A stretch of 64,000 nt of DNA from NCBI RefSeq assembly GCF_039596395.1, contig NZ_JBCNJT010000001.1:1275315-1339314 (forward strand). Direction: 5' to 3'. Positions 23,295-24,056 of this stretch are shown piece after piece (within the stretch, counting starts at the first letter, position 1; every line of letters starts with the position of its first letter). Position numbers and translations under genes: made by a program. The stretch comes from Fluviicola sp. Its GTDB lineage: Bacteria > Bacteroidota > Bacteroidia > Flavobacteriales_D > Crocinitomicaceae. Below the pieces are notes generated by a model, which made no database searches, had not been told where the DNA came from, and was given only the letters and a program-made list of their open reading frames with translations.

Positions 23295-23337
23295 AGAGGG
23301 TTCAAGGGTTCAAAGGGGTCAAAAGGTTCAAATGTTC

Positions 23338-23392
23338 AAAGAGTTCAACTAAATTGATTAAACTTTTGAACTCTTTTTGAACTCTTTTTTTT
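23338..23392. terminator. Terminator after the porin gene
   Basis: AAAGAGTTCAA (23338-23348) pairs with TTGAACTCTTT (23366-23376), followed by a second TTGAACTC copy and an 8-T run near 23384-23392. It is preceded by repeated GGTTCAA motifs (23299-23340). It ends the kup-porin transcript. Confidence 0.75.
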
Positions 23393-23429
23393 CTAACTCC
23401 GACAAAAAACCATCAAACTCCTCAATTGT

Positions 23430-23460
23430 TTTGCGAGGCTTTGGGCTGTGCTTAATTTTG
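23430..23460 (+). promoter_or_regulatory. Complete promoter not in front of a protein gene
   Basis: TTTG (23430-23433), a 19-bp spacer, then TAATTTTG (23453-23460): both -33 and -7 consensus elements of Bacteroidota at correct spacing. It is one of the two most complete promoters I see in the window, and no plus-strand ORF follows for about 600 bp. Confidence 0.65.
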
Positions 23461-23466
23461 GTTCAG

Positions 23467-23655
23467 TGAATAAGTTAGGTGTAAGCATTTTTATTTTCTC
23501 AAATCGTAAAAATGACTTAAGATTATTGATTAAAAGTTAGCACTAAAATCAAACGTTTCAGTTTTCTCACCAAGATTCTGAAATGCAAAATGGAGCTAAT
23601 ATTTGTAGTATTTAGGTGGTTAGGTTAAGGAAAAGTTCGCTTAGGCGGACTTTTT
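23467..23655 (+). ncRNA. Candidate small non-coding RNA (~190 nt)
   Basis: Bounded by the full promoter at 23430-23460 (start expected about 7 bases after the -7 box) and by the hairpin-T5 terminator at 23631-23655. There is no credible open frame on the plus strand. I compared the two ends for 6S-like long pairing and did not find it; I cannot assign an RNA family. The 3' part is purine-rich with TTAGGT/GGTTAGG repeats. Existence is inferred only from its promoter and terminator. Confidence 0.5.
23631..23655. terminator. Hairpin terminator, usable on both strands
   Basis: AAAAGTTCGC and GCGGACTTTT (one G-T pair) around a TTAG loop, followed by a T run on the plus strand. On the minus strand it lies 13 bp past the stop of the small ORF at 23669-23860, with TTTTCC after the stem, so it may serve both transcripts. 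Confidence 0.75.
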
Positions 23656-23668
23656 CGTTTTAACGAGG

Positions 23669-23860
23669 TTACGGTTGTGAGAAGTGGAAACGGTACTTTG
23701 ACTCCCGCTCAGCAACTTTTCCGTCTTCTCTTATTTTGCACTTTAAACCTTTGAGATTTGTTTCATATCCCTGTTGTGTTCCGATTATATCCGGTTTTCC
23801 GATCGTTTTCAGCCGGATTGTTAAAAATAAGGTGATTTGTTGGAGGAATAACGTTTTCAT
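23669..23860 (-). CDS. Possible small protein next to 11-bp repeats
   Basis: A 63-residue open frame on the minus strand with ATG at 23860. The product begins with a hydrophobic, signal-like stretch (MKTLFLQQITLFLTIRL) and continues as a basic, polar segment (GLKCKIREDGKVAERESKYR). I do not recognise it. Support is circumstantial: the tandem 11-bp array lies just upstream on its strand and a terminator lies 13 bp after its stop. It could be a real small gene, a remnant of a larger mobile-element gene, or chance. Confidence 0.3.
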   Translation of the reverse strand: MKTLFLQQITLFLTIRLKTIGKPDIIGTQQGYETNLKGLKCKIREDGKVAERESKYRFHFSQP

Positions 23861-23867
23861 ACTATAC

Positions 23868-23911
23868 CCGTACTTGACCTATACTTGACCCGTACATGAC
23901 CCGTACTTAAC
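23868..23911. repeat. Four tandem copies of an 11-bp repeat
   Basis: CCGTACTTGAC, CTATACTTGAC, CCGTACATGAC and CCGTACTTAAC follow each other without gaps (23868-23878, 23879-23889, 23890-23900, 23901-23911). The consensus is CCGTACTTGAC. The 11-bp period is about one helical turn, so a protein binding each copy would sit on one face of the DNA. It is too short and spacer-less to be a CRISPR array. Confidence 0.85.
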
Positions 23912-24056
23912 CCTCGCAGTTCCGGATTTGATTTTGGCTATCACTTCTCTGGTTACACATTTGATAAGTGCGACGGTTGGTTTCTTTTATGATACCAGCT
24001 ACAAAAATTAACGCTTTGCGGTTTGCCGGGAGTTCCTCAATCCGTAATTTTAACGC
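23912..24056. other. Remainder of the 760-bp non-coding interval
   Basis: No gene seen. Just before ATG 24057 is TAATTTTA, one base off the -7 consensus, which may be the promoter of the flavin-dependent oxidoreductase. Confidence 0.4.

Follow-up and report, generated by a model that had tools for sequence, protein, structure and literature searches.

A short candidate RNA in a Fluviicola genome and the multicopy UAG-repeat RNA family of the Crocinitomicaceae to which it very likely belongs

The window analyzed here, a 64,000-nucleotide stretch of the genome of Fluviicola sp., contains a short noncoding segment between a kup-porin locus and a downstream oxidoreductase gene. The features of this segment were as follows.

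23430..23460, + strand: upstream match to the promoter pattern, TTTG-N19-TAATTTTG (chance expectation of 0.45; no conservation)
23576..23578, + strand: weak -33 element TTC, spacing 19
23598..23605, + strand: -7 box AATATTTG, with 5 of the 6 fixed bases of TAnnTTTG, separated from the conserved block by 4 bases, which is the family spacing
23610..23656, + strand: predicted small RNA with its +1 predicted at 23610, length about 47 nt
23610..23628, + strand: ATTTAGGTGGTTAGGTTAA, the single-stranded arm at the 5' end, belonging to the family UAG(G) array
23629..23656, + strand: intrinsic terminator hairpin of 12 bp with T5 in the 3' arm

A first-pass annotation had read this segment as a small RNA of about 190 nt starting at 23467 under the control of the upstream promoter. 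Much of what it described is present in the letters, including TTTG at 23430-23433, the 19-base spacer, TAATTTTG at 23453-23460, the hairpin with its T5 run at 23629-23656, and a plus strand devoid of open reading frames longer than 30 amino acids. The promoter was correct to the letter but did not exceed chance, as the exact TTTG-N19-TAnnTTTG pattern occurred once in the window versus 0.45 times expected for its composition, and at least one exact match arose in 39 of 100 shuffles. An identity as 6S RNA was rejected, in agreement with the annotation, since the long bulged rod is absent and no Rfam family matched; the Rfam scan that the annotation had proposed gave no match for the window or its relatives at either gathering or relaxed thresholds. 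When positions 23400 to 23700 were searched in 58 related genomes, only short AT-rich matches were obtained for 23400-23586, and no conservation was found between the upstream promoter and about 23600. Positions 23587-23627 gave repeated matches within the genus, several per genome, and these matches led to the actual feature. A conserved family RNA does lie inside the interval first proposed, but it begins about 145 bases later, at a predicted internal start near 23610, with a predicted length of about 47 nt rather than 190 nt. A small RNA is probably present at this locus, although probably not over the bases originally assigned to it. The suggestion that it might represent a new RNA family proved well founded, because a conserved multicopy family exists and has no Rfam match in the window or in relatives. 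Elsewhere in this part of the window, positions 23818-23914 hold a dispersed repeat (...CCCGTACTTGACCTATACTTGACCCGTACATGACCCGTACTTAACC...), of which the genome has about 14 other copies that are 75-92% identical, and positions 23300-23390 hold a TTCAAAGGGTTCAAA-type intergenic repeat, which matched about 40 sites across the genome, on either strand.

Family loci follow a pattern in which TAnnTTTG is followed by 4 bases, by GATTTAGGTGGTTAGGTTAGGTTGATTA, and then by a strong hairpin; that is, a -7 box precedes a TTTAGGTGGTTAGGTTA-type arm and a terminator. The family arm is GATTTAGGTGG, and the RNAs are predicted to start at the G of GATTTAG. Among 97 copies of the main type (type A), the box occupied positions -12 to -5 relative to a 5' block that was identical throughout and ended 4 nt before the conserved G, with a profile of T.97 A.99 nn T.99 T1.0 T.75 G.79, and a -33 TTG at a spacing of 19 was present in 37 of the 97. 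A perfect box was found in 65% of 114 copies compared to 4% of random windows. The sigmaA box of Flavobacterium, TAnnTTTG, is likewise located at -12 to -5 of mapped transcription starts (PMC9723704), and because this spacing matches that of the family, the predicted +1 coincides with the first base of the conserved block. The first 28 positions were invariant among 13 copies drawn from two genera, while the hairpins differed in sequence with their pairs kept. Over 94 aligned copies, 97.9% of the cells of the terminator hairpin were paired and 16 of 17 pairs had changed on both sides, in an alignment that was fitted to the R1 covariance model and for which slid controls dropped to 43-55% paired; none of 500 shuffles paired as well. 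The apical ACGCYYGU is nearly fixed in the family terminator. The invariant arm, in turn, is an unpaired (U)UAGG array, with 4 UAG units in type A (shuffle P = 0.006) and 5 in type B (shuffle P = 0.002). An intramolecular pseudoknot between GGUG and the CGCC loop was considered and rejected, as types that have CUCC loops or lack GGUGG do not conserve it.

Besides type A, the following forms were distinguished.

Type B: GUAGUAGUAGGUUAGGUUGAUUAG, widespread like type A
Type C: few UAG units, with GGUGAGGA at its end
Type D: about 97 nt, a unique 5' part, then GAAUAGUGGUUAGGUUAGGUUAACG, then a terminator; found in the genus
Type E: GAUUUUAGAGGUUAGUUUUCAUAAGUAGUAGUAGUUUAGGUUGG; found in the genus
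Types F and G: found in the genus; possibly 3'-UTR-derived

In types D to G, UAG(G) arrays are re-used ahead of different terminators, and the ACGCYYGU loop is absent from types D, F, and G; what is common to the types is a UAG(G) array immediately before the terminator. This does not reflect a general enrichment of UAG before terminators, which was rejected because ordinary terminators in a 464-kb genome sample had 15 UAG versus 31 in shuffles; the simple terminator finder used did not list the window copy and thus misses some terminators. Type D is highly conserved in the genus (L088 1480-1600, L228-L233, L235, and L236), with a unique 5' part that includes ...AAAAGGAGCTGATATCTTCAGTTTCTGATTCAGT, and type E, at L243-L246, combines several UAG units with a ACGCCCGU loop.

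Matches to R1 were found in all 14 Fluviicola genomes, at 1 to 12 copies each, and in 100 of 150 Crocinitomicaceae genomes representing 17 of 24 genera. Copies also occur in tandem, with 4 in 0.8 kb (L090), 5 in 1.5 kb (L100), and 2 in L093; an array of 4 copies is that of Lishizhenia tianjinensis. An exact 27-mer of the family was present in 77 contigs, most of which carry the label Fluviicola, Brumimicrobium, Lishizhenia, or Flavobacteriales. Judging from the record titles, a few of these contigs are probably mislabelled, and the complete genome CP034120.1 (L150, L151, and L160), which carries family RNAs, is titled Glaciecola amylolytica, probably wrongly. In other families of the order, weak matches in 14 genomes (E values of 1e-5 to 1e-3) were treated as noise. 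Outside the order, the phylum gave two matches, of which one was convincing, a type B RNA in genome G666; it is on a contig piece of less than 1.8 kb and possibly represents contamination. On the basis of these searches, the family appears to be confined to the Crocinitomicaceae apart from this one doubtful match. A literature search for the sequence or for small RNAs of Fluviicola found nothing relevant. We conclude that this multicopy UAG-repeat RNA family of the Crocinitomicaceae was previously undescribed and that no Rfam family matches it.

Full-length family copies, scoring 68 to 74 bits, were also identified on two IMG/VR contigs. One (L184, 5936-6006) is among genes that look Mu-like, with portal and head-morphogenesis proteins judged by eye. 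The other (L183, 9323-9396) is beside a DNA adenine methylase gene and near dnaE and accC, so that it probably borders an integrated prophage. Collections of named phages and plasmids gave no family match, and viral 16-mer matches (L203, L208-L210, L212, and L216) were discarded as repeats or chance. In a Bacteroidota phage represented by three overlapping contigs (L202 3844-3888, L200, and L217), AGGTGGTTAGGTTAAGG, a sequence shared with the window, separates the stop codon of a metallophosphoesterase-like gene from a terminator; given the size of the collection, chance could account for it.

The R1 model, built without the window copy, matched the window at 23609-23663 with 30.5 bits and a genome-wide E value of 0.0012. 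In the window copy, the -7 box is one base off the consensus and the arm is exact over 16 nt, although this arm is shorter than the family arm and contains just 2 UAG units (shuffle P = 0.17). This genome has exactly five occurrences of the 16-mer concerned, TTAGGTGGTTAGGTTA, four in clear family members and one in the window copy. The terminator is strong (minimum free energy of -16.3 kcal/mol over 55 nt; z = -3.7), but its sequence is unrelated to the covarying family terminator, and it has a UUAG loop of its own in place of ACGCYYGU. The RNA was absent next to orthologues of the downstream oxidoreductase in 7 congeners and next to porin orthologues in 5 other genomes, and the link to kup-porin loci that had been proposed was abandoned, since orthologues of both the porin and the downstream gene occur without the RNA. 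The modest score, the foreign terminator, and the lack of synteny would all be expected if the window copy were a decayed or chance look-alike of a family that is itself real, and the weak matches in the 14 genomes of other families point the same way. Such a look-alike is nevertheless improbable, because it would have to share an exact 16-mer with four certain paralogues of the same genome and to hold it directly between a -7-like box and a strong terminator. The window copy is very likely a species-local, divergent paralogue descended from the family. It could be decaying, in view of its one-off -7 box, weak -33 element, 2 UAG units, foreign terminator, and lack of a syntenic copy in relatives.

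It is also possible that a form of about 190 nt is made from a second start at the 23430..23460 promoter and ends at the same terminator. If this were the RNA of the locus, the UAG array would be just its 3' module, as in type D, where a unique 5' part is followed by a UAGG array and a terminator, and the perfect promoter match would be explained. However, a promoter match of this kind arises by chance too readily in shuffles, the upstream part is unconserved, the homology with type A sets in precisely where type A RNAs start, and a -7-like box is at the type A distance. We therefore regard the longer RNA as unlikely and retain the 47-nt paralogue as the preferred assignment.

Because the family arm is both unpaired and invariant, something presumably reads its sequence. 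RbpB, an RRM-1 protein of Bacteroides, is reported to prefer GUAGGAUA (Adams 2021 as quoted in PMC12119571) and to bind the 5' portion of the multicopy FopS RNAs (PMC11697453). Two RbpB-like RRM-1 proteins are encoded in this genome (L084 1492-2211 and L085 1165-1719), which score 99.2 and 92.9 bits with the NCBIfam model Rbp_regulator, slightly short of the cut-off of 100; their presence is weak evidence, since neither reaches the cut-off and proteins of the RRM-1 type are common throughout the phylum. Taken with the motif preference of RbpB and its binding to the 5' portion of FopS, the two proteins favor RRM-1 binding. We infer that each family RNA would be transcribed from a housekeeping Bacteroidota promoter (-33 TTG/-7 TAnnTTTG), would begin at the conserved block, which would be single-stranded for 20 to 30 nt, and would end at an intrinsic terminator, such that the (U)UAGG-repeat arm may act as a landing array for RbpB-like RRM-1 RNA-binding proteins. 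The family RNAs could then load an RRM-1 protein and regulate by base pairing, following the example of FopS and RbpB, or could titrate the protein so that less of it reaches mRNAs, in the manner of CsrB-type RNAs and CsrA. That the family consists of multicopy, RRM-1-protein-bound small RNAs, with chaperoned regulation or titration as the outcome, is the interpretation that we prefer, although we hold it to be about evenly poised.

An invariant single-stranded 5' end would also suit a shared antisense seed, pairing with the start-codon regions of a few conserved mRNAs and leaving proteins in a secondary role, and GibS and FopS of Bacteroides pair with mRNAs in that manner, FopS repressing susC-type mRNAs. 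Against 377 start regions of this genome (a 10% sample), however, the arm was indistinguishable from shuffled arms, with means of -11.55 versus -11.54 kcal/mol and 5th percentiles of -16.8 versus -16.7, so that no general FopS-type pairing signal was seen at start codons, and no site elsewhere in the genome had a 14/16 complement; both tests would miss a handful of real targets. An antisense seed is consequently a doubtful primary explanation. Far less probable is a ribosome decoy, in which AGGUGG would mimic a Shine-Dalgarno sequence and occupy the 16S 3' end. Presumably AGGUGGUU could pair with that end, but types B and E lack AGGUGG and yet keep the UAG array, and the idea was dropped.

In anatomy and number of copies, the family resembles the FopS RNAs of Bacteroides; FopS is multicopy and RbpB-bound and whose sequence has also been found in a phage (PMC11697453). 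Both have many paralogous copies, here 1 to 12 per genome of the genus with tandem arrays of 4 and 5, and both have a conserved single-stranded 5' end followed by an intrinsic terminator. The arm of the present family is a UAG(G) array, the family is confined to the Crocinitomicaceae apart from one doubtful match, and the likeness drawn here is one of description. There was no relevant Rfam match up to an E value of 5, in a set of models that may not include FopS. GibS of Bacteroides thetaiotaomicron (PMC7366714) likewise has an unstructured conserved 5' seed region and an intrinsic terminator, but it is a 145-nt RNA from a single intergenic gene with another promoter motif (PM2). With CsrB/RsmX, the family would share the working principle of several short protein-binding motifs per small RNA; however, it lacks their array of repeated GGA in hairpin loops, its motifs being UAG(G) in an unpaired arm, and rsmX in Rfam matched with just 19.7 bits versus a cut-off of 56. 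Rfp18 of Flavobacterium psychrophilum is a conserved small RNA of a related group but has been described as strongly structured, with several stem-loops, and its description shows no UAG array (PMC9723704).

More speculatively, the UAG(G) array plus terminator may be the Crocinitomicaceae counterpart of the enterobacterial Hfq-binding module, with RRM-1 proteins as the small RNA chaperones and phage copies as competitors for the same protein. In such a case, types A to G, as unrelated small RNAs, would share the UAG(G) module because RRM-1 proteins, and not Hfq, serve as chaperones; we consider this rather unlikely. To our knowledge, the classical RNA chaperones known from Pseudomonadota are missing in Bacteroidota, where the handling of small RNAs is still a question, with FopS/RbpB of gut Bacteroides as the case worked out so far. 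The present family adds to the known RNAs one that is absent from Rfam and has more than 100 ready members. As a second multicopy family, with an arm of repeated motifs that is exceptionally well conserved, in a distant, free-living lineage and carried by phages too, it would provide a defined RNA with which to test RRM-1 proteins.
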